A DNA stretch of 34,923 bases, taken from positions 1-34,923 of the forward strand of contig JAFXAW010000015.1 in the NCBI GenBank assembly GCA_017522015.1, given 5' to 3'. Below, one piece after another: positions 2,623 through 34,923 of this stretch. This DNA is from Oscillospiraceae bacterium (GTDB lineage Bacteria; Bacillota; Clostridia; Oscillospirales; Oscillospiraceae). The notes beneath the pieces were generated by a model. That model did no database searches. It was given only the letters and a program-made list of their open reading frames with translations, and was not told where the DNA came from. Within the stretch, counting starts at the first letter, position 1, and each line of letters opens with the position of its first letter. Position numbers and translations under genes: made by a program.

Positions 2623-2753
2623 TGTGATTGTGGCACGGAGTATGTCATCCATGCTGCTGCGCAAGGATGTTTATCTTGAAAATCCCTGCGCAACAAATCA
2701 TTGCTTGACTTATTCATGCATTTCTTTCTATGATCGAGGCGAGGTGATGATGA

Positions 2754-3437: not shown

Positions 3438-3603
3438 GACGGATGATCCGTATGAAACTTGGAAATGATGGCCGGAATTACAGGCGTTACATTGCTTTAT
3501 GCGCAAAATGCACAGCGTATTGCGAAAAAGGTGCCTTGTTTTGCGCAGCTTCAACCAAAATACAAGAATATTAAAAATATTCATAAAATTATGAAAATAG
3601 GAC

Positions 3604-3632
3604 TTGATTATTCAATATATATGCATTATATT
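3604..3632 (+). promoter_or_regulatory. Promoter of the ABC importer operon
   Basis: TTGATT (3604-3609) and TATATT (3627-3632) are separated by 17 bases in a strongly AT-rich stretch, about 38 bases before the lipoprotein gene. AAAGGAGA at 3652-3659 is its ribosome site. No riboswitch fold was recognised in 3438-3600. Confidence 0.65.
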
Positions 3633-3669
3633 AGACCTGTAATTTAATTATAAAGGAGATCATCCAAAA

Positions 3670-4542: not shown

Positions 4543-4574
4543 TTTACATACCTGATTTGAGCTGTTCTTTTCAG

Positions 4575-4606
4575 TCCCTCTCCGCCGCATGGTGGAGAGG
4601 GATTGT
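4575..4606 (+). terminator. Hairpin between binding protein and permease genes (attenuator)
   Basis: TCCCTCTCC (4575-4583) pairs perfectly with GGAGAGGGA (4594-4602) but is followed only by TTGTTATC. Such a leaky hairpin after a binding-protein gene commonly lowers expression of the permease and ATPase or protects the upstream mRNA 3' end; that role is inferred. Confidence 0.6.
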
Positions 4607-4635
4607 TATCACGTTATTTGAAGGAGTGTAATGCC

Positions 4636-5475
4636 TTGTTCACTGCTGCAGGATTCAAGCGCGCGTTTGAATACATGACACTTTTTGAGCAGGGACTGGT
4701 CTGCACCGTCATGCTCTCGGCCTTTACGGTCATTTTTGGCTTTATATTGGCGCTCGTTCTTGCGCTGATGAGGCTTTCGAACATTTGTCCGTTTGCTTTT
4801 CTCAGAACGGACAGGGAGGGGCATCTGCGTGAGCAGGGCTTCCTCTTCCGGCTGAGCAAGTTTAATCCGATCAGCTTTGTTGCCTCGGTCTACGTTGAGG
4901 TTTTCCGCGCGACGCCTCTGCTCGTGCAGATCTTCATCGTTTATTACGTTGTGCTGGCGGATTTGCCGCTTCCGACGTTCAAGCTGTTTGGCATGATCCG
5001 CTTTAACCGCTTTATCCCCGGCGTTATCGCGCTGAGCATGAACTCCGGCGCTTATCTGTCGGAGATTATCCGAGCCGGCATCCAGTCCATCGACGGCGGT
5101 CAGACCGAGGCGGCAAGAAGCCTCGGCATGTCGCAGATGCAGAACATGCGCCACATCGTGCTGCCGCAGGCCATCAAGAACATCTTGCCTGCGATCGCAA
5201 ACGAGTTTGTCACGATCATCAAAGAGTCTGCCATCTGCTACACCATCGGCGTGCAGGAGATCATGTCGGCGGTTACGTCGATTCGTGGCGCGACGTTCCG
5301 CATCGCGGAGCCGCTCATCATCGCAACGGCGATTTACTTCTGCCTGACCTTCCCGACCAGCAAGATCATCGCGTACTTTGAAAAGCGTATGGGTGCCGGT
5401 GATAAGCGAAACGGCGGCGGAAGGAAGGCCAAAAAGGCTGCGGCCGCGCTTGCGAAAAGGAGGAACCAGCTGTGA
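4636..5475 (+). CDS. Amino-acid ABC transporter permease (HisM/GlnP family)
   Basis: An inner-membrane permease with the conserved EAA-type loop [31 protein letters not shown], which docks on the ATPase, and preceding motif [20 protein letters not shown], typical of polar amino-acid importers. A hydrophilic insertion around [20 protein letters not shown] separates the first membrane helices. The only good ribosome site is AAGGAG at 4621-4626; the in-frame start 9 bases downstream is TTG 4636, giving about 279 residues. The nearer ATG at 4631 is out of frame. The Lys/Arg-rich tail overlaps the ATPase start. It probably acts as a homodimer because only one permease gene is present. Confidence 0.9.
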
Positions 5476-6245
5476 CAGATATATTGATCCGTGTCCGTGG
5501 CCTGAAAAAGTACTACAATCAGGGCGCGATCAAGGCGCTTGACGGCATTGATGCCGACATCAACAAGGGCGACGTGATCACAGTGATCGGCCCTTCCGGC
5601 GGCGGCAAGTCAACTTTCCTGCGCTCTCTGAACCTTTTGGAAGTGCCGACTGAGGGCAGCATCATCTTTAACGGCGTGGACATCACCAAGAAGAAAGAGC
5701 TCAATTCCGAGGGGAAAATGGTGAGGCTGGATCTGAATAAGCACCGCGAAAAGATGGGCATGGTATTCCAGCACTTCAACCTTTTCCCGCATCTTTCGAT
5801 TCTGGACAATATGACGCTCGCGCCGGTCAAGGTCAAGGGCATGAACAAAATCGAAGCGGAAGATAAAGCAATCGCTCTGCTGGAGCGTGTCGGGCTTGGG
5901 GATCGCGCAACCGCCTATCCCATCCAGCTCTCCGGCGGACAGAAACAGCGTGTTGCAATTGTTCGCGCGTTGATGATGGAGCCGGAAGTCATGCTTTTTG
6001 ACGAACCGACGAGCGCGCTGGACCCCGAGATGGTCGGCGAGGTTCTGGAGGTTATGAAGGAGCTGGCGGAAAGCGGCATGACCATGGTGGTCGTCACGCA
6101 CGAAATGGGCTTTGCACGCGAGGTTGGCAACCGAACTTTCTTCCTTTGCGAGGGCAAACTCATGGAAGAGGGTACACCGGATGAGGTTTTCAACAATCCG
6201 AAGAATCCAAGACTTCATGACTTTTTGAGCAAGGTGCTGTTATGA
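5472..6245 (+). CDS. Amino-acid ABC transporter ATP-binding protein (GlnQ/HisP family)
   Basis: A 257-residue ATPase that powers the importer. Walker A is GPSGGGKST (about residues 39-47), the Q-loop is [13 protein letters not shown], the signature is LSGGQKQR, Walker B is [14 protein letters not shown], and the switch His is in [12 protein letters not shown]. An insertion around [18 protein letters not shown] before the Q-loop is common in this subfamily. The GTG start overlaps the permease stop as GTGA, with AAAAGGAGG just upstream, and its stop overlaps the next gene as ATGA, so all three products are probably made by coupled translation. Confidence 0.94.
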
Positions 6246-7696
6246 GCGAATTCAAAAAACAGATACTGGATTATATCGACGCTCACGCCAATGATTTCAT
6301 CGGCGTGAGCGATGCAATATGGGAATATGCGGAGCTTTCCTTAAAAGAATTCAAATCCGCTGCGCTGTACTGCGAGGTTTTGCGCAAGAACGGATTCACG
6401 GTGGAAGAAGGGCTTTGCGGCGTGCCGACGGCGTTTTCTGGCAGCTTCGGTTCGGGAAAGCCCGTGATCGGCATTTTGGGCGAGTTTGATGCGCTTTCCG
6501 GCTTGAACCAGACCGGCGGTGTGGCAGAGAAGATGCAGTTCCTGCCCGGCGGTGGCGGACACGGATGCGGGCACAATCTGCTCGGCGCAGGCTCGCTCGC
6601 GGCGGCTTTTGCGGTTAAGGATTATCTCGAAAAAACAGGGAAGTCCGGAACGGTTATCTATTTTGGCTGCCCTGGAGAGGAGGGCGGCGCCGGCAAAGCC
6701 TTTATGGCGCGCGAAGGTGCGTGGAAAAAGCTGGATGTGGCGATCACATGGCATCCTGCTGATGTCAACCGTGTGGTTTCCGGCTCCTGCCTTTCCTGCA
6801 TTCAAAAGGAGTATACTTTCCGCGGGATTGCTTCCCACGCTGCAGGAGACCCGGAGCGCGGACGCAGCGCACTGGACGCGGTTGAGCTGCTCAACATCGG
6901 GGTGCAGTATCTGCGCGAGCATATGCCGCAAACCGCGCGTGTGCATTACGCCATTACGGACGGCGGCGGCCTGTCGCCGAACGTCGTGCAGCCGACGGCG
7001 AGCGTGCTCTATATGGTCCGCGATCATCTGGTCGGCGAAGCGCTGAAACTTGAAAAACGTGTGGACAAGATTGCGAAAGCTGCCGCCATGATGACGGAGA
7101 CGGAGGTCTCTGTGCGCTTTATTGACGGATGCGCGAATACGCTTGCCAACAAGGCGCTTGAGGAACTGATGTACAGGAATATTGCGGAAGTACCCGTGCC
7201 GGAATACACGGCGGAAGAGCTTGACTATGCTGAGGCACTGGTCAAATCCTATGAGTCCGGCCCGCCGAGACCGCTTGCGCAGATTTATGCCAACGAGTTT
7301 GGTGACAATGAGATCGCCTTGATCAATGAGAAAACCGACGGCGGAAAGAAAGTCATCAACAATTTCCTGATGCCCTACAAATTCTCCAAAACGGTGGAAA
7401 TGGGCTCGACGGACGTTGGCGATGTGAGCTGGCAAACGCCAACCGTGCAGATCGATGCGGCTTGCCAGCCGAACGGTTCTCCCGGACATTCGTGGCAGAA
7501 CGTGTCCTGCGGAAGGAGCAGCATCGGCTATAAAGGCATGCTGTATGCAGCCAAAGCGCTTGCCTTCCTTGCAGCGGACATTCTGGAAGACCCGTCGCTG
7601 CTGGATGCGCCGAGAGCGGAATTTGAGAAAACGGTGAAAGCCGCAGGCGGTTACGACTGCCCCATTCCTCCCGACGCTGTGCCAACGGCGCTGTAA
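6242..7696 (+). CDS. M20 family amidohydrolase (AbgB-like aminoacylase)
   Basis: A 484-residue metal-dependent hydrolase very close in length to AbgB (p-aminobenzoyl-glutamate hydrolase B, about 481). Metal-site motifs are [10 protein letters not shown] (residues 103-112), [11 protein letters not shown] (142-151, with the catalytic Glu) and TWHPAD (169-174); [21 protein letters not shown] is the start of the lid/dimerisation domain; [10 protein letters not shown] carries a late conserved segment. M20D enzymes remove acyl groups or cleave amide-linked amino acids in the cytoplasm. The gene overlaps the ABC ATPase gene by ATGA, so the imported compound is probably its substrate: an N-acyl amino acid, dipeptide or aryl-glutamate conjugate. 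No AbgA partner is present; many family members act alone. Confidence 0.88.
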
Positions 7697-7724
7697 ATGA
7701 ATAGCTAAAGCAAATGAAATAAAG

Positions 7725-7763
7725 AAATCCCCCGGAAATACAATGTTTTCCGGGGGATTTTTA
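7725..7763 (+). terminator. Terminator of the importer/amidohydrolase operon
   Basis: AAATCCCCCGGAAA (7725-7738) pairs with TTTCCGGGGGATTT (7747-7760), followed by TT. It is a strong intrinsic terminator just after the M20 gene. Confidence 0.88.
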
Positions 7764-7858
7764 TTTGCATTACTGTGCACTTATTCTCTGTGCTGTGCAC
7801 GTTTTAAGCTGCGCTGACGCGATGTTACGGAGAAATCCGTGTGTGGTGGGAGAAACAA

Positions 7859-8812
7859 TCACACGCCCTTAAAAAGGACCTTCAGCGCGTTCCAGTAATA
7901 GTAGGGAACCAGGTAGTCGGTATGATAGTAATCAGAGACACAGAAATAGATGTTGTTGGCGGTGGGATCATCACCGTAGGAGAAGCAGGGCTCCTTCGTC
8001 AGGAATCCCATCTCCCGCGTCATCTCAACAATGTCCCGCTGGCCGCCGTTGCAGGCATAGATGAAGAAGGGCAGCTCGGGATTGGCCTTGATGGGCGCAG
8101 TGACGTAGTCAATGACGTTCTGATCCGTCCGGTCTGCTTTGCTGATGTTGTCCACAAAGACGTCACAGCTGATGGGCACATACCATCTGAAATAATCAAA
8201 GCTGTGATGAATCATGCGCCAGGTCATCGCGCCGCCGCGGGAATAGCCGGAGAATGCGCGGTGATCGCGCGAGGCCTTGATTCCTTCTTCGGTGGCGGAT
8301 TCAAGATATGTGTTGTAGCGGGTCTCCACGGCGGGGATGATGCTCTCAACCACTTCGCGGTAGAAATAAGGCGGCAGGGCCTTCCAGAAGCCGTCTCCGG
8401 CCTCAACCATGCCCGATTTCATGCGCTCGGCGGTGTCACGGATCGGATTCATATAGTAGGTGGTCGATACAATGATGCAAGGCTCGATCTCGCCGCTTTC
8501 GAAAAGCATGTCGAGCATGGGTTCGTTTCCGCCACGGGACAAAATGGACGGCTCACAGGTGTTGCCGTGCTGGTAATAGAGCACATTGTAACGCTTGGAC
8601 TTGTCCTCGGGGTTGTAACCGTAGGGGAGATAGACATAGCAGTATTTGTGATAGGTGATGCCGTTTTCATATACTGCGGTGTCATACTCCACAATCTCGG
8701 AGGTGCCGCGCTTGGCGGCAACTGCCGTGCGCAGGCCGGGATGCTCCTCAAAAACCGTCTCAAAATCGATGATCTCGCCGGGTTTTCCGATTACTTTTCT
8801 AAATTCGCTCAT
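7859..8812 (-). CDS. Alpha/beta-hydrolase, CE1/feruloyl-esterase-like
   Basis: A 317-residue esterase of the CE1/esterase-D type. The nucleophile elbow is GYSRGG (Ser 191); likely partners are Asp 260 (GGQRD) and His 297 (YYHTDYL), and YYQHGNTCEP (79-88) forms the oxyanion-side loop. The sequence VYLPYGYNPEDKSKRYNVLYYQHG is typical of carbohydrate esterases that remove acetyl or feruloyl groups from plant polysaccharide. There is no signal peptide, no cellulosome dockerin and no carbohydrate-binding module, so it should act inside the cell on imported oligosaccharides or small esters. AGAGGAGA lies 7 bases before the ATG. It stands alone, convergent with the importer operon. Confidence 0.8.
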   Translation of the reverse strand: MSEFRKVIGKPGEIIDFETVFEEHPGLRTAVAAKRGTSEIVEYDTAVYENGITYHKYCYVYLPYGYNPEDKSKRYNVLYYQHGNTCEPSILSRGGNEPMLDMLFESGEIEPCIIVSTTYYMNPIRDTAERMKSGMVEAGDGFWKALPPYFYREVVESIIPAVETRYNTYLESATEEGIKASRDHRAFSGYSRGGAMTWRMIHHSFDYFRWYVPISCDVFVDNISKADRTDQNVIDYVTAPIKANPELPFFIYACNGGQRDIVEMTREMGFLTKEPCFSYGDDPTANNIYFCVSDYYHTDYLVPYYYWNALKVLFKGV

Positions 8813-8960
8813 CTTGCAGTCTCCTCTTTAAGTTATGTATGGATTGGATTATACGAAAAACGCAAATGTGTGCACAGGGGAAAGGTTGTAAGGCCGCGGA
8901 TGCCGCAATAACAGCTTAAGCGACGGCCCGGGTCCTTACGCAGAAAGGATTTCTTTGACT

Positions 8961-8989
8961 ATTATATCATGCCTCTGTTTCTGCGGCAA
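8961..8989 (-). promoter_or_regulatory. Promoter candidate for the esterase gene
   Basis: On the minus strand TTGCCG (8989-8984) and TATAAT (8966-8961) are exactly 17 bases apart, with an extended -10 TGA before TATAAT. It would give a 5' leader of about 140 nt before the esterase ATG. A second TATAAT at 8853-8848 lacks a good -35. Confidence 0.6.
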
Positions 8990-9103
8990 TATAAACTTCT
9001 CTCCGGAGGGAAGGCGGGCTGCCCGGAATCTCCCGCCAATCTTTGCAGCGCAGAATTCAGACTTCGCTTCAGCGTCCATGTAAGATAGAGAAATGCAGCA
9101 AAT

Positions 9104-9150
9104 CAAAAAGCAATCCCCCGAATCTGACATAACAGCAGATTCGGGGGATT
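9104..9150 (-). terminator. Terminator of the CODH/ACS operon
   Basis: A perfect 15-bp stem, AATCCCCCGAATCTG (9112-9126) with CAGATTCGGGGGATT (9136-9150). Read on the minus strand it follows acsB by about 22 bases and runs into GCTTTTTG. A T-rich stretch on the plus side also makes it potentially bidirectional. Confidence 0.88.
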
Positions 9151-9172
9151 TTACCTTTTAAGTAAAAATCGC

Positions 9173-11302
9173 TTAGAGGAGGGGCTCCATCTCCAGCACG
9201 GGATGCCCAACCTCGGCAAGATAGTTCATGAGGCTCTCTTCGTCTTCACAGATGGTCTCATCGGCAATCATATCTGTGAAATTCTCCACGCCGTAGAGCT
9301 CCTGCGCCGCCGCGTTGAGCTTTTCGCGGACAAGCTCCTTGAGTGCCTTGGGCATCCAGACGATGCGTCCGAGGCCGCCTTCTGCCTTGAGGAATTTTTT
9401 GGAGGAGATGAAGTGCTTGCCGTGGCCCATGAAACCGGGCGTCTGCACGCCACCTCCGGTCATGGAAGCCATCTCCGAGAAGGTCATGCCGAGCGGTGTC
9501 ATGCCGAAATGCTCGCGGTTGACGATCACAAAGCCGTTGGAGCAATACTCGATGCCGCAGATGCACTCGAAGCAGCCGCAGCTTGTCATGGGATCCTGCA
9601 GGATGGAGTACAGCGTCACGTGCTCCAGCGCGCCGTGGCTGTATTTGTAAACAGCTTCGTCAACATCTTCCCAGATGCCGATGTGCTCGTCAACGACCTT
9701 TTCCTTGGTCACGACCTGGCAGGGACCGTTGGGATCGAGCTCATTTGTGGCCTTGGCATCCAGCCAGCTGACCGCGCCGCACAGGCCGAGACGCTCGGGC
9801 GTGACAACGCATACATGGGAGGGGGAGAAGCTCTGGCAAAGCGTGCAGGTGTAGAACACATTGACGCTCTCATCGGTGAGCGTGCGCAGACGCTCATCGC
9901 GCTTGTCATAGAAGCTGTTGGCGAGCGCGCGCATCTCGTGCAGTTCTTCAGGGATCGTGAAGATGGTCACCTGGCACTTGTCGACGACACTCTCGTATTC
10001 GTTTTTGATCTTGGCATACAGAACCTCGCCGAGATGGCGCGCTCTGAAGCCGGCCTCGTAAGCGCCGACGCTGACACGGATGCGGTTGACGTCACGCTGA
10101 CCGGTGTGCATGATGCCCTCGATGCAGTTGAGGAAGTTGTGGAACTTACGCTCAATGACAGGCTCAAAGTCCGGCTGCATGCTCTTGCCGGCCACTTCGA
10201 CCAGCATGCCAAGGCCCATGCTGTGACCCTGCTCAAACTCATCAAAGTCGGGACCCTTGAGGATGATCTTGTGATCCTCGATCTCGTGCAGTTCGCGGGT
10301 GCGCACCAGCTCAAAGCAGTCATAGACCGAGCCGTTGATGTCGATCTGCGTATCCTTCTTGCGGATGATCTCGCCCTCAAAAGCGGGGGAGAACGCAACC
10401 GGAATATCAATGTTCGTGACCTTGATCTTGATGTCTCTGGCCTCGAGGGAGGTTTCAATGAAATCCGCGCTGTTCGGCTGGACAATCAGGCTCTTGGGCA
10501 CGCGCCATATGTTCTCTGTCTCATTGGTGATGACAGGGAAGCCCAGCGCAATGGCGCCGCCGCCGCAGCCGACAACGATGTCGCGCAGGGGCGCGAAGGC
10601 GTTGACAAAAGCGTGGATGCGGTGGAAAGTGTAGTCCTGAAAACCGTCAAAATCGCCGGGCTGGATCGCGCCAAAGATCATGGCGGCACGTACGACGAGG
10701 GAGATGATGTGTCCAACACCCCAGATTTCTTTCGTCACGGGAACGACACGCACCGGGAAGCCCATGCTGATGTTCATGCGCTCTGCCTGATCGATGATGT
10801 CGCCGATCAGGAAAACGAAAATGCCCTTGCTCTGATAGCCCTTGATGAGCGCTGCAGCCTCCTCGTCGGAGGGGGCGGGGTCGATAATCACGACAAAGCC
10901 GGGGATGTCGTCCGTAACCAGCGGCACGCCCAGCTCACGGACTTCTGCATCGGAGAAGTGACCGTGATATTTCGTTCCCGCATAGGGGGTGGGGGTCTTT
11001 ACGTACTTGCAGGCCTCAATGATCTCCGCGGCCATGGCGGTGCCGATGCCGCTCATGAACACGTCCGTGGTGCGCGGATTGTGGGTCATCATGCCCTTGA
11101 TGTGATCAAGTGCATCGTTCATATCGGCCAGATTTGTGATCTTCTTACCCGCATACGCCAGCGAGCAGGCGAGGTTGTAAGCGGTGTCCGGCATGGCGAT
11201 GGGAGTATCCGGCCCCATTTCGGCCGTAATGGCATCCAGTTCCTTGCGCGCGATCGCGTACATCTCATCTGAACCGCGGAAAACTCTGTCAAACAGTCCC
11301 AT
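9173..11302 (-). CDS. acsB: CO-methylating acetyl-CoA synthase, A-cluster subunit
   Basis: This subunit joins CO, a methyl group from the corrinoid protein and CoA to form acetyl-CoA in the Wood-Ljungdahl pathway. It has 709 residues (Moorella AcsB 729). A-cluster ligands are all present: Cys 486, 489, 498 and 508 (CTLCQSFSPSHVC, then GLCG) for the Fe4S4 cubane, and Cys 575-Gly-Cys 577 (SCGCFEC) for the distal nickel. Every one sits exactly 20 positions before the known Moorella ligands 506, 509, 518, 528, 595 and 597, so the difference is confined to the N-terminal side. The CODH-binding domain, the middle domain (GCGGGAIALGFPVITN) and the C-terminal A-cluster domain are complete. AAAGGATA precedes the ATG. 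It is the last gene of the operon. Confidence 0.97.
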   Translation of the reverse strand: MGLFDRVFRGSDEMYAIARKELDAITAEMGPDTPIAMPDTAYNLACSLAYAGKKITNLADMNDALDHIKGMMTHNPRTTDVFMSGIGTAMAAEIIEACKYVKTPTPYAGTKYHGHFSDAEVRELGVPLVTDDIPGFVVIIDPAPSDEEAAALIKGYQSKGIFVFLIGDIIDQAERMNISMGFPVRVVPVTKEIWGVGHIISLVVRAAMIFGAIQPGDFDGFQDYTFHRIHAFVNAFAPLRDIVVGCGGGAIALGFPVITNETENIWRVPKSLIVQPNSADFIETSLEARDIKIKVTNIDIPVAFSPAFEGEIIRKKDTQIDINGSVYDCFELVRTRELHEIEDHKIILKGPDFDEFEQGHSMGLGMLVEVAGKSMQPDFEPVIERKFHNFLNCIEGIMHTGQRDVNRIRVSVGAYEAGFRARHLGEVLYAKIKNEYESVVDKCQVTIFTIPEELHEMRALANSFYDKRDERLRTLTDESVNVFYTCTLCQSFSPSHVCVVTPERLGLCGAVSWLDAKATNELDPNGPCQVVTKEKVVDEHIGIWEDVDEAVYKYSHGALEHVTLYSILQDPMTSCGCFECICGIEYCSNGFVIVNREHFGMTPLGMTFSEMASMTGGGVQTPGFMGHGKHFISSKKFLKAEGGLGRIVWMPKALKELVREKLNAAAQELYGVENFTDMIADETICEDEESLMNYLAEVGHPVLEMEPLL

Positions 11303-11325
11303 TGTCTGTATATCCTTTCACTCCG

Positions 11326-12099
11326 TTATTTCTCTTCTTCAAGCCGTGCCTGAATCTGTCGGATCTCCTCCACAGTCTTCGGACTGCGGTCAAAGGGGGA
11401 GAGGCCGCATCTGTCGGCCTCGGCGGTGTCATCATTGTAGCTGATAAAGCCCAGCAGCTCGGATTCCGGTATGCGCTGCGCAATAAACTCCCGGTCTGCT
11501 TCGCTGCGGATTTTGTTCGCGACCACGCTGACCCGGTTTACGCCCAGCTCCTGCGCCAGGGACTTGACCTTCCTGTAGGTCTGGATGCTGCGCTCGCCCG
11601 GCTCGATCACGACGATAAACCTGTCCACAAAATCGGTGGTGCCGCGTGCCAGGTGTTCCAGTCCGGCCTCCATGTCCATAATGACCACTTCGTCCTGGCG
11701 AAGCACAAGATGGCTGAGGATGCGCTTGATCATCACATTCTCGGGGCAGACACAGCCGCTCCCTGCGTTATCAACCGTGCCCATGACCAAAAGCTTCACA
11801 CCGTGCTTTTCCAGCGAGAAGCGATCCGGGATGTCGTCTACGCGGGGATTGATGCGGAAAAACTTTCCGAAAGTCTCCTTCGTGGCGCCTGTCCGTTCGG
11901 CGATCAGCTCAGTCATCCTGGAAATGGGCGTGATGGAGTCGATTTCCTCCTGCGTGAATCCCAGCGCGGCGCCAAGATTGGCGTCCGGATCCACGTCGGC
12001 GGTGAGCACACCCTTGCCCTGCTGCGCGTAGAGCCTTGCGAGTATGGCGGATAAGGTGGTCTTGCCCACGCCGCCCTTTCCGGTAACAGCTATCTTCAC
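11326..12099 (-). CDS. cooC: CODH nickel-insertion ATPase CooC
   Basis: A 257-residue MinD/SIMIBI-type ATPase. The deviant Walker A is GKGGVGKTT (residues 7-15), a switch motif lies in ADVDPDANLG, and DMEAGLEHL is the Walker B-like segment. The nickel-binding CxC pair of the family is present as Cys 116-Val-Cys 118 (GSGCVCPEN). Dimers bind one metal ion through these cysteines and deliver nickel to the C-cluster of CODH (or to ACS for AcsF-type members) on ATP hydrolysis. The start is GTG 12099 with GAAGGG upstream; only 18 bases separate it from acsA and 23 from acsB, so it belongs firmly to the operon. Confidence 0.93.
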   Translation of the reverse strand: MKIAVTGKGGVGKTTLSAILARLYAQQGKGVLTADVDPDANLGAALGFTQEEIDSITPISRMTELIAERTGATKETFGKFFRINPRVDDIPDRFSLEKHGVKLLVMGTVDNAGSGCVCPENVMIKRILSHLVLRQDEVVIMDMEAGLEHLARGTTDFVDRFIVVIEPGERSIQTYRKVKSLAQELGVNRVSVVANKIRSEADREFIAQRIPESELLGFISYNDDTAEADRCGLSPFDRSPKTVEEIRQIQARLEEEK

Positions 12100-12117
12100 A
12101 GTATCCCTTCCCGAAAA

Positions 12118-14016
12118 TCAGATTCCGATCGCAGCGCGCTTGGCTTCAATGCCGTCAATCATGGCCTTGACCAGCTCTTTCGGATCCATATTGATGATGT
12201 AGCCCGCGCCGACCATCTCGCGCGTTCCGTTCGTGATGAGCTCCATCATTTCCTCGCTGCCGGTTACCTGCGGCTCGATGCCGAGGTATGTATCAATGCC
12301 GGTTGCCACAACATAGTTGGCGATGGAGACGGCCTTTTCGCTCATCCATTCCGGCGCGCAGCCGACAACGGGGAGCTGTGTCACATCAATGCCCCAGTCC
12401 TTCGCAATGCCGGTGACGAGGAGCATCATGCGGCTGATGTCCACGCAGGAGCCCATGTGCAGCACGGGCGGAATGTCGGCAAGCGTGCAGACACGCTTGA
12501 GGCCTTCGCCGCAGAGCTCTTTGGCTTCCTTGGACATGAGGCCGGCCTTGGCGCCGGCCTGTGCGGAGCATCCGGTCGTCACGACCAGAATGTCGTTTTT
12601 CAGCAGCTCTTTCATGATCTCAATGTGGGAATAGTCCGGCCGCACCTTCGGGTTGTTGCAGCCCACGATGGCCACGGCACCGCGCAGAACGCCGGATTCC
12701 ATGCACTCGATCAGGGGCTTGTAGGTGCTGCGCAGGTCAACGTGACTGTTCGTGACCGTGTCAAGCGTCTCAATAATGCCCTCGCAGGAATAGCCCACGG
12801 TGGCTTTCTGCCGCATATTCTCGGGAACAAAGACCTTCGAAGGATCGCGGTTCTCAAAGTTGTCAATGGCCATACGGACCATCTCGCGCGCCTGCTCACG
12901 GGCGGTTTCCTGCGTGAACTGCATGTGGATCGCGTCCGGAATGCGGGCGATGGGGGAGGTGGTGACAAACTTGGTGTGGAAGCACTTGCTCAGCGGCCCA
13001 AGAGAGGGGAAGATGCACTGCACGTCCACCGCGATCATCTCGACCACGCCGGTGAGAATGGCGTTTTCCTGCTGCAGGAAGTTGCCGGCCATCCGGATGC
13101 CGTGACGCATCGCCACCTCATTGGCGGTGCAGCACAGGCCGCAGATGTTGATGCCCTTCGCGCCCTTGCTGCGGGCGTATTCGAGCATATCCCGATCCTC
13201 GGCCGCCACAACCAGCATCTCGCTCATTGCGGGGTCATGGCCGTGAATGATGATGTTGACCATTTCCTTGTCCAGGCAGCCCAGACCGGCCTCGGTGTTG
13301 GTGGGCTTGGGGGTGCCGAACAGAATGTCGGTGAATTCCGTTCCCATCATGGAGCCGCCCCAACCGTCAGCCAGTCCGCTGCGGAGGCTCTGGCGCACAA
13401 GCGCCTCAGGCAGCGCGGTGTTGCCCATGTGGGTCATGTGCATGGCAGTCGTCACCTCGCGGTCGACAGCCCGGGGGGCGATGCCCTCACGCTGCCAGAC
13501 CTGCTGGCGCTCCTCGGTGGCACGCTCGAGGAAGAGAAGATTGCCAAAGGGTTTGCCGTACTCCAAAAGACCCTTGTATGCGCAGTCGTGCGCGATGTCG
13601 TACAGGTCGCGCCCCTCGGTCTCGATGCCCCATTCGGCGGCGAGATCCAGAAGCTTCTTCTCGTCGGTTACTTTATAGTTTCCGTCAGCAGATGCGCTAT
13701 AGAGTGTGTGCGCAATTTCGCGGCCGTGATCGGAATGTGCAGAGCAACCGCCCGCCACCATCCGCAGATAGTTGCGTCCGGCGATCGCCCCGGCGTCCGC
13801 ACCGCAAATCCCGCGGGGGGACTTGGGCGTGATCCGGCACGGTCCCATGGAACAAATACGGCAGCAAATTCCGCTGTCGCCAAGCTTGCAATGGGGAGTC
13901 TGGTTCTTGCTTCTGCTCTCCCAGGTATCTGCACAGACTGCACAGGCCTGCTCTTTCAGCTTGACGGACACCTCTTCCATCTGCTCAACTGTTGTGAAGT
14001 GGTCCCATCTCTCCAA
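12118..14016 (-). CDS. acsA: Anaerobic carbon-monoxide dehydrogenase catalytic subunit (Ni-CODH)
   Basis: This enzyme interconverts CO and CO2 at a Ni-Fe-S C-cluster and feeds CO to AcsB. The N-terminal Cys set for the D- and B-clusters is visible (HCKLGDSGICCRICSMGPCR). C-cluster ligands are also visible: IIIHGHDP (His), NICGLCCTANE, DVQCIFPSL, VGCNNPK, TTGCSAQAG and GSCVDISR, plus the catalytic Lys in EWMSEKA and His in GGCSAHSDHGRE. An AAGGAG at 14031-14026 lies 9 bases before TTG 14016, giving 632 residues, normal for CooS/AcsA; a frame opening at TTG 14049 would bury that ribosome site. The acsA name is chosen because of the neighbouring acsB; cooS is the alternative label. Confidence 0.96.
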   Translation of the reverse strand: MERWDHFTTVEQMEEVSVKLKEQACAVCADTWESRSKNQTPHCKLGDSGICCRICSMGPCRITPKSPRGICGADAGAIAGRNYLRMVAGGCSAHSDHGREIAHTLYSASADGNYKVTDEKKLLDLAAEWGIETEGRDLYDIAHDCAYKGLLEYGKPFGNLLFLERATEERQQVWQREGIAPRAVDREVTTAMHMTHMGNTALPEALVRQSLRSGLADGWGGSMMGTEFTDILFGTPKPTNTEAGLGCLDKEMVNIIIHGHDPAMSEMLVVAAEDRDMLEYARSKGAKGINICGLCCTANEVAMRHGIRMAGNFLQQENAILTGVVEMIAVDVQCIFPSLGPLSKCFHTKFVTTSPIARIPDAIHMQFTQETAREQAREMVRMAIDNFENRDPSKVFVPENMRQKATVGYSCEGIIETLDTVTNSHVDLRSTYKPLIECMESGVLRGAVAIVGCNNPKVRPDYSHIEIMKELLKNDILVVTTGCSAQAGAKAGLMSKEAKELCGEGLKRVCTLADIPPVLHMGSCVDISRMMLLVTGIAKDWGIDVTQLPVVGCAPEWMSEKAVSIANYVVATGIDTYLGIEPQVTGSEEMMELITNGTREMVGAGYIINMDPKELVKAMIDGIEAKRAAIGI

Positions 14017-14054
14017 AGCTAAACGCTCCTTCCAAACTTCGTAAATCAATCGTT

Positions 14055-14152
14055 GCGGCCTGTCCCAAAACGGAAAGGGAAGGCCGCTTGTGTTGGATGT
14101 TCAATGCTGATTTTGATCAATACGCTTTGCGGCATGCGCCGCGGCTGTCACT
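14055..14152 (-). other. Hairpin cluster between cooT and acsA
   Basis: The 151-base gap between cooT and acsA holds a strong bulged hairpin, GCGGCCTgTCCC (14055-14066) with GGGAAGGCCGC (14077-14087), a perfect small one, GCGGC (14129-14133) with GCCGC (14138-14142), and a weaker one just after the cooT stop. None has a T-tract on the minus strand, so they look like mRNA-processing or stability elements rather than terminators. Confidence 0.5.
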
Positions 14153-14167
14153 GAAAGTGTCAGGCCG

Positions 14168-14359
14168 TTACGCACCCACCACAACAAGGGAATTGCCCAC
14201 CAGGTCAACGCTCTGGATCGATCCGTTCAGGACGGTGGTGCCGCCCAGAAGGTCGGTGATCGTGATCTGAAGCCCGTCCACGGCGACCTCTGTGATGCTG
14301 TCGGCCACCTTGGCGCGCTCACCGGTGCTGTCAACGAAATACACGGTTGCAAGGCACAT
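14168..14359 (-). CDS. cooT: CooT family nickel-binding protein
   Basis: A 63-residue protein beginning MCLATVYFVD, the hallmark of the CooT family, in which Cys 2 takes part in nickel binding by the dimer. CooT helps supply nickel for CODH maturation (first known from the Rhodospirillum rubrum coo operon). The rest is a small beta-barrel-like sequence (GLQITITDLLGGTTVLNGSIQSVDL). The start is ATG 14359 with AAGGAG 8 bases upstream; the open frame extends further up but lacks a ribosome site. It is the first gene of the CODH/ACS operon, 151 bases before acsA. The pairing of CooT and CooC suggests two separate nickel-handling steps. Confidence 0.9.
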   Translation of the reverse strand: MCLATVYFVDSTGERAKVADSITEVAVDGLQITITDLLGGTTVLNGSIQSVDLVGNSLVVVGA

Positions 14360-14612
14360 GTTGTTTGCTCCTTCCAAAAAGAATACTTGGATGCAGGGGA
14401 TGTTCCGGCTTAGCATGGCCGGATTGCGGAAACTCTATGCCGCCCACGGGCAGATCCCGCTTACAAGGGGTGAGAGCGCCGGGCCAGGTGCTTGTGCATA
14501 GCCGCTGGATTCCGGGGCTCGAGCCTCGTGTTTCGCAGGAGAAAATCATTGTAGGAAATGCCAAAGAAAAATAAGAACGATATTGGCTTGTTCTTCCAGC
14601 ATAGCTTTCCAT
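14360..14612 (-). promoter_or_regulatory. Long structured 5' leader of the cooT-acs operon
   Basis: From the predicted start near 14611 to the cooT ATG there are about 250 untranslated bases, with no convincing ORF. The sequence is rich in possible stems: TCCGGC (14404-14409) with GCCGGA (14418-14423), GCGG (14426-14429) with CCGC (14440-14443), CGGG (14447-14450) with CCCG (14456-14459), and the palindrome GGCTCGAGCC (14516-14525). I could not match it to a known riboswitch (no clear B12 box, TPP or SAM core). A metal- or cofactor-responsive RNA is possible but unproven. Confidence 0.4.
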
Positions 14613-14617
14613 ATGAA

Positions 14618-14646
14618 ATATTATCACACTATTACCCATTATTCAA
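14618..14646 (-). promoter_or_regulatory. Promoter candidate for the cooT-acsA-cooC-acsB operon
   Basis: On the minus strand TTGAAT (14646-14641) and TAATAT (14623-14618) are 17 bases apart in an AT-rich region. This is the best-spaced pair between the nadE terminator and cooT. The -10 matches the consensus at only four positions, compatible with dependence on an activator. Confidence 0.5.
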
Positions 14647-14685
14647 GTGTAAACTATGCTTAATTTATGTTTTTTTCAATTTGGC

Positions 14686-14701
14686 ATAACACAAGTGTTA
14701 T
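14686..14701. promoter_or_regulatory. Inverted repeat upstream of the acs promoter (possible operator)
   Basis: ATAACAC (14686-14692) and GTGTTAT (14695-14701) are perfect 7-bp arms separated by AA. It lies about 40 bases upstream of the predicted -35, a usual position for an activator such as a Crp/Fnr or LysR-type protein. It is not the CooA consensus (TGTCG...CGACA). Confidence 0.5.
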
Positions 14702-14735
14702 AATTGCGCTGTGCTGTAACAGATGATAAATATTG

Positions 14736-14780
14736 TAAAAAATTACAATGGTGACTCCGAAAGCTTCGGAGTCACCATTG
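14736..14780 (-). terminator. Strong terminator after NAD synthetase gene
   Basis: A perfect 16-bp stem, CAATGGTGACTCCGAA (14746-14761) with TTCGGAGTCACCATTG (14765-14780), has a 3-base loop and is followed on the minus strand by TAATTTTTT. It ends nadE transcription 48 bases after the stop and separates it from the acs operon. Confidence 0.93.
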
Positions 14781-14827
14781 TGTTACATGATGTTTATTGT
14801 ATAGAGTTGTCCGCGAGGGAAGACCGG

Positions 14828-30158: not shown

Positions 30159-31187
30159 TTACTGAGGATAAGAAAGGACATAGGGAGAATCTTTGCGAGG
30201 GGTGAAAACGTCGGACAGTCCGCCTGTGAGCACAATTCTTCCGTCCTCCGTGATGAGCAGGAGTTCAAAAGTGTCAAGCTCTGCCTGCAGCCGAAGTGCA
30301 GCTTCCTCGCCCAAAACAAAGAGCGCGGTGGAAAGCGCATCGGCCAGCGCACCATCCTGACAAACAACGGTCACGCTGCGCAGATCACTGTCGCAGGGAT
30401 AGCCGCTGCGCGGGTCGAAGATGTGGTGATAGGTTTTTCCGTCCTGCTCGAAAAAGCGCCGATAGCTGCCGCTCGTGATGACGGCCGTGCCGCCGCCGAC
30501 AGAGAGTGTGCCGACGGAGACGCTCTCGTCAAACGGATCCTGCACAGCGATCTCCCACAGACCGCCGCCCGGCTTCTCTCCGAGCGTCTGCACGTTCCCG
30601 CCGAGCGAGAGGATGCCGCTTTCTACGCCCGCTGCGCGCATTGCGTCCGCCGCGTGCTGTGCGGCATAGCCCTTGGCAACGGCGCCAAAGTTCAGCGCCA
30701 TTCCATCCGGAAGGCCGGCGCCCGTATTCGTCACGGTTACCTGTGCGAAATCCACGCATTCGAGCAGAGTTTGGATTTCCGCTTCTGTCGGCACATGGTA
30801 CTGCGCATCGACAAAACCCCAAGCCTTTACAAGCGGATAGACAGTCGGGTCGAAAGCGCCGCCGGAGGCCTCATACACCGCTTCGCAGGTGTGGAGCATG
30901 GACAGCACCGCCTCGTCCTGCACGGTCTCGCCGTGGTTGAGCCGATAGACGGCGCTGCCCTCTGTTTCCGGGTCGAGCAGCTTGTCCAGCGAGCGGAGCG
31001 CATCCGCCGCGGCCTCAAGTCCGGCCTCGGCATTCTCGCCGTAGGCAGTCAGGGACATGTAGGTGTCCATCGCAAAAAGAGTGCAGGAGCTTTTATCCGG
31101 CGGCAGGGAACAGGCACAAAGGCCAAGCAGCAGTGCAAAAGAGATCAGCAGACTACAGAAGTGCCTTGTGTTCCTCGTAGAAGGCAT
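30159..31187 (-). CDS. apbE: FAD:protein FMN transferase (ApbE), lipoprotein
   Basis: This enzyme attaches FMN covalently to Thr/Ser of flavoproteins such as Rnf or Nqr subunits, using FAD. It has 342 residues. The signal peptide ends in a lipobox (LLLGLCAC), so it acts outside the membrane. Family motifs: FAMDTYMSLTAYG, GGAFDPTVYPLVKAWGF, ALNFGAVAKGYAAQHAADAM, ILSLGGNVQTLG, and HHIFDPRSGYPC with the magnesium/FAD region DALSTALFVLG. The ATG at 31187 has GGAGG 6 bases upstream and lies inside the end of the aldo/keto reductase gene, a 35-base overlap. The flavoprotein target is not in the window; Rnf is a good candidate in an acetogen. Confidence 0.93.
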   Translation of the reverse strand: MPSTRNTRHFCSLLISFALLLGLCACSLPPDKSSCTLFAMDTYMSLTAYGENAEAGLEAAADALRSLDKLLDPETEGSAVYRLNHGETVQDEAVLSMLHTCEAVYEASGGAFDPTVYPLVKAWGFVDAQYHVPTEAEIQTLLECVDFAQVTVTNTGAGLPDGMALNFGAVAKGYAAQHAADAMRAAGVESGILSLGGNVQTLGEKPGGGLWEIAVQDPFDESVSVGTLSVGGGTAVITSGSYRRFFEQDGKTYHHIFDPRSGYPCDSDLRSVTVVCQDGALADALSTALFVLGEEAALRLQAELDTFELLLITEDGRIVLTGGLSDVFTPRKDSPYVLSYPQ

Positions 31188-32172
31188 GATAATCCTCCAG
31201 CATGAACGGCATCAGCTCGGCAGCGTTCAGCCCGTAGGGGCATTTCTTCGCGCACTGGCCGCAGTGGATGCAGTTTTTGATCTGCTCCATCTTCGCCTGC
31301 GTGTCGGCGCCAAGCAGCGGACGCCAGGGGGAGCGGCGCAGAAGCATGTTCATGCGCGCGCAGGTGTGAATTTCAATCCCGGCAGGGCAGGGCTCACAAT
31401 AGCCGCAGCCGCGGCAGAAGCTGCCGGCAAGGGAAGCACGGTCTGCCTCGATTGCGGCGATCAGCTCTTCGTCAAGGTCGGGATCTTCCTCTGCCAGCGC
31501 GAGCCACTCTTCCAGCTCGTGCATATGCTGAATGCCCCAGATGGGCACAACGTTCGGTTTGGTTTTCATGAACGCGTGGCAGGCCCGCGCATTGGTCAGC
31601 AGTCCGCCGGCCAGACCCTTCATCGCGATAAAGCCGACGTTCTTCTCCGCGCAAAGCGCCACCAGCTCATGCTCGCGCTCGCCGCTCAGATAGCTGAAGG
31701 GGAACTGCATCGTTTCAAACAGGCCGGAGTTCACAAGATCGAATGCCAGCTCGATATCGTGCGTCGTGACGCCGATGTGCAGGACCTTGCCCGCAGCCTT
31801 CGCGGCATATGCGGCTTCCAGCATTCCCTCGCTGGGCATTTCCTTGACAAAGTGGAACTGGAAGAGGTCGATGTAGTCACTTTGCAGGCGCTTCAGGCTC
31901 AGGTCGATGTGCGTTGCCACATCCTCGCGTGTTTTTCCGCCGCTCTTGGTGGAAATGATATAATTCTCGCGCGGAATGCCCGCAAAGGCTTCGCCCAGCT
32001 TCTCCTCGCTGTCGCTGTAGCCATTGGCAGTGTCAAAATAGTTGATGCCGCCATCCAGCGCAGCGCGGAGTATGCGCGAAGCGGTTTCTCTGTCCGCACG
32101 CTGGATCGGCAGCGCGCCGAAGCCGGGCTTGGAGACAACAAGCCCGGAGACGCCGAGTGTGATCTTATTCAT
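31153..32172 (-). CDS. Aldo/keto reductase with C-terminal 4Fe-4S ferredoxin domain
   Basis: A 339-residue cytosolic oxidoreductase. Residues 1-270 are an AKR barrel: GINYFDTANGYSDSEEKLGEA (Asp and Tyr), ISTKSGGKT (Lys) and DLFQFHFV (His) form the tetrad. The tail has two Cys clusters, CRGCGYCEPCP and CIHCGQCAKKCP, for iron-sulfur centres, plus HTCARMN between them. This fusion is common in anaerobes, with electron transfer from ferredoxin assumed. The start is ATG 32172 with GGAGG 9 bases upstream; it overlaps the end of the HxlR gene by 8 bases. The regulator is likely to control it directly; a reactive carbonyl or quinone is a plausible substrate class. Confidence 0.9.
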   Translation of the reverse strand: MNKITLGVSGLVVSKPGFGALPIQRADRETASRILRAALDGGINYFDTANGYSDSEEKLGEAFAGIPRENYIISTKSGGKTREDVATHIDLSLKRLQSDYIDLFQFHFVKEMPSEGMLEAAYAAKAAGKVLHIGVTTHDIELAFDLVNSGLFETMQFPFSYLSGEREHELVALCAEKNVGFIAMKGLAGGLLTNARACHAFMKTKPNVVPIWGIQHMHELEEWLALAEEDPDLDEELIAAIEADRASLAGSFCRGCGYCEPCPAGIEIHTCARMNMLLRRSPWRPLLGADTQAKMEQIKNCIHCGQCAKKCPYGLNAAELMPFMLEDYHAFYEEHKALL

Positions 32173-32617
32173 GTTCAGATTCCTCCGTTGTTTCTTTTTC
32201 AACCGGCAGCCCGTCTTCATCATAGCCGAGATCTGCCATGATGTCTCCAAGCGCTTCGGAGAAAGCATCTCCGGTGTGCACGACAAAGGCATCGGGATCA
32301 ATGCTGATGCCAAGCTCGTGCATCCGGCGGATGCTCCAAATGTACAGGCTGTCAAGTATGGGCATCAATTCCCGACCCTGCCTGGTGAGGACATATTCAA
32401 CTTTCAGCGGAATGGTGTTGTACTGAATGCGTTCCACAAGGCCGTCCAGCGCGAGCTCACGCAGCTGCTCGGCCAGCACTTTTTCGCTGATCGGCAGCGT
32501 CTTGCGCGTCTCGTTGAAGCGAATGCATCCGTAGTGATGAATGTGGTTTAGAATCGTCATCTTCCACTTTCCGAGCAGACACTTTCGCACATAGTGATAT
32601 GGATTGACGTATTCCAA
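32165..32617 (-). CDS. HxlR-family winged-helix regulator
   Basis: A 150-residue DNA-binding protein. Residues 5-100 match the HxlR winged helix: [77 protein letters not shown]. The Cys usually near the start of YodB/HxlR redox sensors (before LLGKW) is present as Cys 13. A longer acidic tail ([31 protein letters not shown]) is unusual. The start is TTG 32617 with AAGGGGG about 8 bases upstream. Its promoter and operator-like repeats are shared with the divergent SDR operon. Members respond to electrophiles, quinones or disulfide stress, so redox or ligand control is inferred. Confidence 0.88.
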
Positions 32618-32673
32618 GCTGTATCCCCCTTTGACAAGGCCGAAAAGCCGCTTCTCCTGTTAAAAACAACCAT

Positions 32674-32702
32674 ATTATACTATATAAATTTGAAAAATCC
32701 AA
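32674..32702 (-). promoter_or_regulatory. Promoter of the hxlR-AKR-apbE-murT-pta-MBL run
   Basis: On the minus strand TTGGAT (32702-32697) and TATAAT (32679-32674) are 17 bases apart. It lies 57 bases before the TTG start of the HxlR gene. Confidence 0.7.
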
Positions 32703-32708
32703 CAATTC

Positions 32709-32733
32709 ACTTACAAAAAAGTAAGTTACTTAC
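32709..32733. promoter_or_regulatory. HxlR-type operator candidate
   Basis: ACTTAC (32709-32714), GTAAGT (32721-32726) and ACTTAC again (32728-32733) form an inverted repeat with a further half-site. This ACTTAC/GTAAGT pattern resembles sites bound by HxlR/YodB/QorR-type proteins. It lies between the two divergent promoters and covers the -35 of the SDR operon. Confidence 0.6.
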
Positions 32734-32757
32734 AAAATTGTTTGTATTGCATATAAA
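32729..32757 (+). promoter_or_regulatory. Promoter of the SDR-HAD-cyclase operon
   Basis: CTTACA (32729-32734) and TATAAA (32752-32757) are 17 bases apart; the -35 overlaps the third ACTTAC half-site. The leader to the SDR start is about 65 bases, ending in AGGAGG. Confidence 0.55.
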
Positions 32758-32827
32758 GCGCGCTTGTCTTATCATAGATATTGCAACAAAATGCCTAATT
32801 TTAAAACACTTTAGGAGGTTTTTAGAA

Positions 32828-33622
32828 ATGGTAGCAATTGAAAAAGATTTTGTCAAGAACATGTTCTCCGTCGAGGGCAAAGTGGTTCTCGTGACCGGCG
32901 TGACCGGCGCTCTGGGCTGCGTTCTGGCAAAGGGCTACGGCTACGCCGGCTGCAAGGTCTTCATGACCGCGCGTAACGCCAAGAAGCTGCAGTCTCTGGA
33001 AGAAGAGTTCAAGGCCGAAGGCATCGACTGCGCCTACTTCGCCGCGGATCCCGCCAAGGAAGAGGATGTGGACGCGCTCATCAAGGCTGTTGTCGCCAAG
33101 TACGGCGAGATCAACATCCTGGCTGTTGCGCACGGCTTCAACAAGCCCGCGAACGTCCTGGATCAGAGTGTTGAGGATTGGCAGTACATCATGGACGCCG
33201 ACTGCAAGAGCGTTTACATCGTTGCCAAGTACGTTGCGCACCAGATGGTCGCGCAGGGCAAGGGCGGCAAGATGGTCATCACCACCTCTCAGCGTTCCAA
33301 GCGCGGCATGGCCGGCTACACCGGTTACTGCACCTCCAAGGGCGGCGCTGACCTGATGGTCAACTGCCTGGCCTGCGACCTGACCGCTCAGTACGGCATC
33401 AACGTCAACTCCATCTGCCCCACTGTCTTCCGCAGTGACCTGACCGAGTGGATGTTCGATCCCGATTCCGCCGTGTACAAGAACTTCCTCGCCCGTGAGC
33501 CGATCGGCCGTCTGGGTGAGCCGTCCGACTTCGTCGGCTATGCTCTGTTCCTCAGCTCCGCCGCTTCCGACTTCATCACCGGCGCGAACTGCGACTGCTC
33601 CGGCGGTTACCTGGTTGTGTAA
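32828..33622 (+). CDS. Short-chain dehydrogenase/reductase (SDR)
   Basis: A 264-residue classical SDR that interconverts an alcohol and a ketone using NAD(P). Rossmann motif TGVTGALG (residues 23-30); TARN at the end of strand 2; NNAG is replaced by AHGF (101-104); active-site Ser 154 (ITTSQRS), Tyr 167 and Lys 171 (YCTSK); C-terminal [13 protein letters not shown]. The atypical AHGF in place of NNAG is seen in some gluconate 5-dehydrogenase-like members. AGGAGG precedes ATG 32828 (the frame is open upstream but without a site). Codons are strongly biased to GCC, GGC, AAG, ATC, TGC. The next gene follows in 41 bases. Confidence 0.9.
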
Positions 33623-33663
33623 TCTTTCCGAGAAGTATTTCTGCTGAAAGGAAGTAAACCGAA

Positions 33664-34599
33664 ATGAACATTAAGAACGTGGTCGTCGTCGGCGCCGGCA
33701 TGATGGGCAACGCCCTGGCGCAGGTTTTTGCGTCCAACCCCGAGCTGAACGTCAAACTCAAGACCCGTAGCCTCAAGCCGGACCGCTGGGAGCCCATCGA
33801 GAACAACCTCGACATCATGATCGCCCGCGGCGCCGCCACCGAGGAAGAGAAGAAGGCTATCCTCAGCCGTATCAACTTCGTCACCGACATGGCCGAAGCT
33901 TACGCCGATGCGGACTTCGTCATCGAGTGCTATCCCGAGGTCATGGAGACCAAGCAGCAGCTCTTCTGCGAGATCGAGCAGTACTGCTCCGATAAGTGCA
34001 TCCTTGCCACGAACTCCTCTGTTATGAGCTCCACCGAAATCGGCTCCAAGTGCGCCCATCCCGAGCGCGTTGTCGGTGCCCATTTCTGGAATCCCGGTCA
34101 CCTGATCCCGCTGGTTGAGGTCATCAAGTCCGACGCCACCGAGGAGTGGGTCATCGAGGAGACCATGGAGCTGATGACCAGCTGCGGCAAGAAGCCCGTC
34201 TACTGCAAGAAGGACGTTCCCGGCTTCGTCGCCAACCGTCTGCAGCACGCCCTGTGGCGTGAGGCTTTCTACATGGTCGAGAACGGCATCGCCGATGCCA
34301 AGACCGTGGACGATGCCTGCAAGTACGGCCCCGGCCTGCGCTGGCCCGTCATGGGTCCGATGGAGAACTCCGACCTCGTCAGCATCGAGCTGAGCAAGAA
34401 CATCCACGACTATATCCTGCCCTATCTGGCCGATAACCACGAGCCGTCCAAGTGCCTGGCTGAGATGCTTGAGCGCGGCGACAACGGCTTCAAGACCGGC
34501 AAGGGCTGGCAGGAGTGGACCGCCGAGGAGATGCAGGCTTCCAATACCGGCCTGCGCGAATATCTGATCGATTATATTGCCAAGCAGAAGAAAGACTAA
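33664..34599 (+). CDS. 3-Hydroxyacyl-CoA dehydrogenase-family NAD-dependent dehydrogenase
   Basis: A 311-residue dehydrogenase of the 3-hydroxyacyl-CoA/L-carnitine/L-gulonate dehydrogenase superfamily. NAD motif VVVVGAGMMGNALAQ (Gly 10, 12, 15); ADADFVIECYPEVMETKQQLF; NSSVMSSTEI; catalytic His 140 and Glu 152 in GAHFWNPGHLIPLVEV; and DVPGFVANRLQHALWREA starting the helical dimerisation domain. The residue following the first strand (TRSLKPDRWEP) is not the acidic residue usual at that spot, so cofactor choice is uncertain. Substrate unknown; CoA thioesters and free hydroxy acids are both possible. GAAAGGAAG precedes the ATG. Heavily biased codons, as in the SDR gene. Confidence 0.88.
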   Translation: MNIKNVVVVGAGMMGNALAQVFASNPELNVKLKTRSLKPDRWEPIENNLDIMIARGAATEEEKKAILSRINFVTDMAEAYADADFVIECYPEVMETKQQLFCEIEQYCSDKCILATNSSVMSSTEIGSKCAHPERVVGAHFWNPGHLIPLVEVIKSDATEEWVIEETMELMTSCGKKPVYCKKDVPGFVANRLQHALWREAFYMVENGIADAKTVDDACKYGPGLRWPVMGPMENSDLVSIELSKNIHDYILPYLADNHEPSKCLAEMLERGDNGFKTGKGWQEWTAEEMQASNTGLREYLIDYIAKQKKD

Positions 34600-34629
34600 T
34601 ATAAATTATTATTTGGAGGTAATTTTACA

Positions 34630-34923
34630 ATGGGTAAGACCGTATTTGTTGACCTGACTCATCCCTTTGGTGCTGAGATCCCGCGTTGGCCTTATTTCGA
34701 TAAGCCCGAGATCGTTGGCGCTCATTCCATGGCTAAGGGCGGCGTGCTGACGCAGCGCATCACCTGCACCATGCACACCGGCACGCACTGCGACGCTCCC
34801 CGTCACGTCATGGAGTATGAGTTCGACGGCCGTCGCGCTCGTTATTCCGACGAGATGCCCATCGACGCTTACACCGGCACTGCTGTTGTCCTGAAGATCG
34901 ACATCGAGCCCTGGGGCCTGATC
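34630..34923 (+). CDS. Cyclase-family (kynurenine formamidase-like) metal hydrolase, partial
   Basis: Open to the end of the window (98 codons; a full protein is about 210-260). The N-terminus (MGKTVFVDLTHPFGAEIPRWP) and the metal motif HTGTHCDAPRH (His 49, His 53, Asp 55, His 59) define the cyclase family, which includes kynurenine formamidase and isatin hydrolase and cleaves amide or lactam/lactone bonds. GGAGG lies 12 bases before the ATG. It is the third gene of the SDR-HAD operon, 30 bases after it. A ring- or lactone-opening step in the same pathway is inferred. The C-terminal part is not visible. Confidence 0.88.
   Translation, partial: MGKTVFVDLTHPFGAEIPRWPYFDKPEIVGAHSMAKGGVLTQRITCTMHTGTHCDAPRHVMEYEFDGRRARYSDEMPIDAYTGTAVVLKIDIEPWGLI

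Follow-up and report, generated by a model that had tools for sequence, protein, structure and literature searches.

A probable phloroglucinol-degradation operon beside a divergent HxlR-family regulator at a contig end of a gut Oscillospiraceae genome

What do the enzymes of a tight, strongly codon-biased operon at one end of contig JAFXAW010000015.1 of an Oscillospiraceae bacterium (assembly GCA_017522015.1) act on, and what controls them? The window, meaning the whole stretch of 34,923 nucleotides (nt) analysed, corresponds to contig C15, whose last position is 34923; the genome measures 1.87 Mb and is 91% complete. A preliminary description made from the DNA letters had proposed that the operon degrades or detoxifies a cyclic small molecule by a pathway that it did not recognise. 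Our analysis identifies the locus, with a probability of about 0.94, as an anaerobic phloroglucinol-degradation operon in the order PGR-TfD-DPGC-TAL of a gut Oscillospiraceae bacterium, broken by the contig end. Phloroglucinol is a ring-shaped piece of plant polyphenols. The pathway is already described and the locus adds another copy of it. The assignment draws on which genes are present, how similar they are to characterised enzymes, which diagnostic residues they carry and how often they occur together, and on the association of a DNA motif with HxlR. Genes in the window were named from Pfam matches above curated cut-offs, and the parts of the locus are as follows:

32165..32617, minus strand: HxlR-family regulator that diverges from the operon, with TTG as the listed start codon (PF01638, E=3.9e-24; bit score 84.8, cut-off 20.8)
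32704..32746, no strand: palindromes and direct repeats with ACTTAC / GTAAGT half-sites, a putative operator
32813..32818, plus strand: AGGAGG, probably the ribosome-binding site for PGR, read from the sequence
32828..33622, plus strand: predicted phloroglucinol reductase (PGR) of the SDR family, by similarity to PDB 5g4k
33664..34599, plus strand: predicted (S)-3-hydroxy-5-oxohexanoate dehydrogenase / triacetate-forming dehydrogenase (TfD) of the 3HCDH family (PF02737, PF00725)
34630..34923, plus strand: predicted dihydrophloroglucinol cyclohydrolase (DPGC), first 98 residues, running off the contig (PF04199)
L006:6206-7219 (G000:C37:46205-47218), minus strand: complete DPGC, 337 aa, on contig C37
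L006:5253-6113, minus strand: predicted beta-keto acid cleavage enzyme (BKACE; TAL), adjoining DPGC on C37

The gaps within the operon are 41 nt (PGR/TfD) and 30 nt (TfD/DPGC), and the Pfam matches agree with the two dehydrogenases and the ring-opening hydrolase of the preliminary description. Its further suggestion, that the operon runs on past the window edge, was borne out by contig extension. Contig C37 shares its end with the final 300 nt of C15 (292/300 identical, with the same 98 residues encoded in both contigs) and adds the rest of the operon, namely the full DPGC followed by a fourth gene, BKACE (TAL). In the sister genome (G001), HxlR, PGR, TfD, DPGC and TAL were found on one contig with 98-100% protein identity to the set from the window and C37, and the gene after TAL is the same next gene as on C37. 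The operon is interrupted only by the contig end.

The purified PGR, DPGC, TfD and TAL of Clostridium scatologenes degrade phloroglucinol (Zhou et al. 2023, PMC10470551). In that organism DPGC is of the cyclase family, TfD is a 3HCDH-type dehydrogenase and TAL is a BKACE-type triacetate acetoacetate-lyase (PMC10470551); the locus studied here has the same four enzyme families and the same diagnostic residues of DPGC, TfD and TAL. The window PGR was identical at 210 of 261 aligned residues (80%) to PDB 5g4k (E=4e-145), an entry titled 'Phloroglucinol reductase from Clostridium sp.', and the enzyme of 5g4k/5g4l comes from strain ATCC BAA-442 (PMC10470551). The window PGR reads TARN, and 5g4k TGRN, at the position of the NADPH motif (T-x-R-N); PMC10470551 prints the motif as TR(S/N). 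The SDR fold is common to 5g4k/5g4l and the predicted model of the window protein (mean predicted local distance difference test score, pLDDT, 80). Gluconate 5-dehydrogenase and FabG-type reductase were among the best NCBIfam names for this SDR but fell below cut-off and were rejected, 5g4k being far closer. None of the NCBIfam matches listed for ten proteins (for the two SDRs, the best 25 of 216 and 227 matches) reached cut-off; the name '3,5-dioxohexanoate:acetyl-CoA acetone transferase' for the TAL candidate attained only 212.6 of 430 bits and was not used as evidence.

Searching named genomes with an alignment of DPGC yielded 239 relatives; the 80 best of these were retained for mapping, and all locus counts out of 80 refer to them. 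DPGC carries Trp20 and Tyr22, which replace the residues of isatin hydrolase and are also those of CsDPGC, both in the window fragment and on C37, and the same was seen in 79/80 loci; the solved structures nearest to it by sequence are kynurenine formamidases (E=1e-5). When TfD was aligned to 4kug, with positions hand-counted on the printed alignment, Ser119, His140 and Asn191 were kept, Lys56 was replaced by Ala and Asn221 by Gly. The catalytic Ser/His/Asn are therefore retained while the CoA-contacting Lys56 and Asn221 of 3-hydroxybutyryl-CoA dehydrogenase are lost, as described for CsTfD. Trp21 of the C37 TAL aligns with Glu14 of KCE (in 2y7d), and Trp occupied this position in all 65 of the 65 loci having TAL. 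For PGR, TfD, DPGC and TAL alike, the sequence features that mark the cluster of Zhou et al. 2023 were found. The proposal of a catabolic operon acting on a cyclic compound stands in outline, but its pathway is not an unknown one, because gene content and diagnostic residues match the described pathway; the order PGR-TfD-DPGC-TAL also occurs in Eubacterium ramulus, the order in C. scatologenes being outside this comparison.

We infer that the same four reactions take place in the window organism as in C. scatologenes. PGR would reduce phloroglucinol to dihydrophloroglucinol with NADPH, and DPGC, a predicted metal-dependent cyclase-family hydrolase, would open the ring to give (S)-3-hydroxy-5-oxohexanoate. 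TfD would oxidise this product to triacetate (3,5-dioxohexanoate), from which TAL, with acetyl-CoA, would form acetoacetate and acetoacetyl-CoA, both of which could enter acetate/butyrate fermentation. The overall reaction is most likely the conversion of phloroglucinol to acetoacetate and acetoacetyl-CoA.

Co-occurrence of the genes in other genomes, a check proposed in the preliminary description, was confirmed. Among 150 family genomes, a sample that included the window genome and its sister and consisted of two draws taken as the same genomes by their handles, PGR (threshold E up to 1e-95) and DPGC, the two genes covered by this count, were present in 28 each; both occurred together in 27 and each alone in one more. 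TfD was counted in the 80 loci, 64 of which had it beside DPGC. At the cut-offs used, PGR was found in 74 of these best 80 of 239 loci, TAL in 65, TfD in 64 and HxlR in 51. A divergent HxlR followed by exactly PGR-TfD-DPGC-TAL was present in 27/80 loci, the same four genes without HxlR in 17/80, and a divergent HxlR followed by PGR-DPGC-TAL-TfD in 7/80 (L034, L060, L064, L066, L071, L073, L091). The four genes were also found in one stretch in the sister genome and six other relatives, in the order PGR-TfD-DPGC-TAL in 6/7, these seven having been picked for long matches among the 17/60 genomes with a DNA match.

The 80 loci include Coprococcus catus and two E. ramulus records, one with the accession prefix cited in PMC10470551. 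E. ramulus is named there as a carrier of the cluster (PMC10470551), and Coprococcus species are reported as rumen phloroglucinol degraders (PMC5633678). Compared with the window, E. ramulus (L090, L094) has the same gene order, with identities of 81% for PGR, 77-78% for DPGC and 76-77% for TAL; in contrast, its TfD is 50% identical and its HxlR homologue lies approximately 6 kb downstream rather than divergent from the operon. In the loci viewed (L021-L027, L070, L090, L094), TfD identity to the window was bimodal, at least 79% or 48-54%, and PGR and DPGC varied more smoothly; perhaps two kinds of TfD exist.

The text on the C. scatologenes cluster mentions a transporter and a transcriptional regulator of unnamed family, and the word HxlR does not occur in it (PMC10470551), whereas the window operon has its divergent HxlR. 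Homologues of thiolase and CoA-transferase lie inside the C. scatologenes cluster (PMC10470551) but on a separate cluster, on contig C29, in the window genome. An MFS transporter, such as accompanies the cluster of Zhou et al. 2023, was not recognised by eye among the open reading frames viewed on either side, part of the flanking ones having been scanned. A cupin-like gene (116-117 aa, named by eye; e.g. L083:7772-8119 of Flavonifractor sp. An112, L034:2544-2894) was present in 53/80 loci, and in 49/80 at no less than 50% identity, on the same strand and immediately before PGR. It is missing from the window operon, the only relative in the genome being 36% identical (C12:74394-74714), and the main text of PMC10470551 does not use the word 'cupin'.

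The very strong codon bias seen in the preliminary description was also confirmed. The effective number of codons (ENC) was 29.6 and 30.2 for the two complete operon genes of the window and 30.1 for each of the two C37 genes, whereas five neighbours in the window gave 36.1-52.3 and three further genes on C37 gave 36.8-44.6, all genes in this comparison having been chosen and named by eye. Such bias is not confined to the phloroglucinol operon; four genes of the C29 cluster had ENC values of 29.5-31.7.

The divergent HxlR gene with operator-like repeats was found as the preliminary description had stated. A 15-nt direct repeat begins at 32704 and its second copy, 87% alike, 19 nt further on at 32723; the palindrome ACTTAC-N6-GTAAGT has an exact match at 32709. 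With up to 2 mismatches, this pattern had 2 matches in the window against 0.26 expected (2/100 shuffles reached 2), and GTAASTTACTTAC had 3, all overlapping the 32709 site, against 0.24 expected; both patterns were composed after the site was seen. ACTTAC/GTAAGT was the most enriched hexamer in 46 divergent regions, present in 35/46 compared to 8.0 in shuffles, a count that includes matches inside reading frames (e.g. L064, L073, L096), so that a stricter 250-nt count is preferred. In this count, which omits 16/80 loci having no PGR, an HxlR that is not divergent or less than 250 nt before the first gene, 30/46 loci with divergent HxlR, and 1/18 without any HxlR, had the motif in the 250 nt that precede the operon's first gene (Fisher p 1.3e-5, an optimistic value since the loci are related). 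As a gene-body control, the motif occurred within the DPGC gene in 10/46 loci.

The HxlR relatives were 51-98% identical to that of the window. Cys13 was conserved in 51/52 aligned proteins, the window's included, and NPY near the start was conserved among the relatives. Repression of the operon by HxlR, released by a phenol, may be proposed: HxlR would most likely bind the ACTTAC/GTAAGT repeats and keep the operon off until a phenolic signal frees it. CatR and YodB of Bacillus subtilis belong to the DUF24 family, which we take to be the HxlR family; they resemble the window protein in this respect but control a different operon, and phenol sensing or a thiol switch in the window HxlR is only predicted. 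CatR senses catechols and controls catDE (PMC6212828); no published YodB or CatR operator sequence came up in the literature passages searched. A text search, with most subscription journals outside its coverage, found no publication tying HxlR to phloroglucinol or anaerobic polyphenol breakdown. We consider the odds about even that the phloroglucinol clusters of gut Bacillota have, in this HxlR, a regulator of their own that is as yet undescribed. It would belong to a group of close relatives, at least 51% identical to the window protein and with conserved Cys13 and NPY, that use ACTTAC/GTAAGT as operator for repression and leave it when a phenol is present or when Cys13 is oxidised. The likely control switch seems to be the only undescribed part of the operon, and the locus offers a candidate regulator and operator for the phloroglucinol cluster, unnamed in the text of the describing paper.

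Several observations weigh against assignment of the locus to phloroglucinol degradation. C15 and C37 were joined not from reads but from 300 nt of overlap, in which 8 mismatches leave the protein unchanged, and from the sister genome, where the genes are contiguous. In that overlap C15 matches the sister at 299/300 and C37 at 291/300. As C15 is the nearer, C37 may end in a variant from another strain (the assembly could contain a mixture of strains) or, with lower probability, in a second copy. The enzyme activities in the window organism are predicted. The stretch 155-170 of the PGR model, at the active site, is mostly below pLDDT 50, and the fold match by itself is weak evidence for PGR because SDR folds resemble each other. 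The match to the C. scatologenes proteins was judged by the residues described in PMC10470551, not by direct comparison of sequences, and TfD is only approximately 50% identical to its E. ramulus counterpart. HxlR is absent from 29/80 loci, and 16/46 loci with divergent HxlR have no exact motif in the 250 nt examined. PGR is absent from 6 of the 80 loci, TAL from 15 and TfD from 16, some loci ending at contig ends. Nine (L033, L037, L040, L042, L074, L078, L096, L103, L105) have PGR and DPGC with no TfD or TAL over the cut-offs within the fetched stretch; for L096 and L105 the contig stops a short way beyond.

The same chemistry might instead be directed at another cyclic polyketone, such as an alkylated or acylated phloroglucinol or resorcinol, by retuned homologues of PGR, DPGC and TAL. 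The cyclase and BKACE families take varied substrates, and this genome encodes the four families a second time, in a diverged set (27-41% identity), which makes a retuned set conceivable. However, the SDR and the phloroglucinol reductase of known structure share 80% identity, the signature residues of DPGC and TAL are conserved, and a resorcinol route would presumably need neither the dehydrogenase nor BKACE, which leaves this explanation improbable. It is still harder to regard the operon as a defence against quinones or electrophiles under HxlR control, in the manner of YodB and CatR, and not as carbon catabolism. The regulation of catDE by catechol-sensing CatR, the presumed common family and the conserved Cys13 would fit such a role, but the operon includes TAL, which would make central metabolites with acetyl-CoA, and its codon bias is very strong. 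Moreover, phloroglucinol supports growth of C. scatologenes, whose cells then contain the four homologous proteins (PMC10470551).

A further reading draws on the genes beyond HxlR, among them the following:

31153-32172, minus strand: ferredoxin-domain aldo/keto reductase (Pfam), with an ApbE gene on the same side

In it, the pathway would form a new redox module together with this reductase and the ApbE flavin transferase, which are adjacent, on the HxlR strand and retained in the sister genome. The preliminary description had drawn attention to the reductase; the gene is present, but it is not a conserved neighbour. Homologues were found in 3/80 loci for the aldo/keto reductase and in 1/80 for ApbE, the sister genome being counted in both, and the codon bias of the two genes is ordinary. 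Both were rejected as members of the system on these counts, and the redox module is very unlikely indeed. Degradation of phloroglucinol itself remains the preferred explanation of the operon.

The leads remaining are the HxlR regulator and the second cluster, on C29 (L007, G000:C29:52000-68000). At 1277-14781 it encodes a cyclase, 3HCDH, BKACE and SDR that are 27, 35, 41 and 32% identical to DPGC, TfD, TAL and PGR, respectively, the BKACE having Gly at the Trp position of TAL. The cluster also has CoA-transferase genes, thiolase, MerR, a sodium symporter, LysR and a pyrogallol-hydroxytransferase-like molybdenum enzyme with its iron-sulphur subunit (several names given by eye), and is probably another ring-cleavage pathway. 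A PF02550 search of the genome for another CoA transferase gave no match. The C29 cyclase was found in 37 of the 150 family genomes, two weak matches having been removed from the 39 obtained at E 1e-20; 19 of the 37 had no PGR at E 1e-95. In 20 fetched neighbourhoods of this type, several of them cut by contig ends, 3HCDH was present in 18, MerR in 16 and BKACE in 14; SDR was present in nine at 61% identity or more and in a tenth at 30%, and the molybdenum enzyme in six (two at 80% or more, four at 35-48%).

The pyrogallol hydroxytransferase homologue on C29 matched 4v4c with E=7e-248, and a DAPG-hydrolase (phloretin hydrolase) family protein is encoded on C25; both could supply phloroglucinol. 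In its own region (L110:3733-8321, minus strand), the DAPG-hydrolase gene adjoins genes for what we take, from their sequence, to be a glycyl-radical enzyme and its activase.
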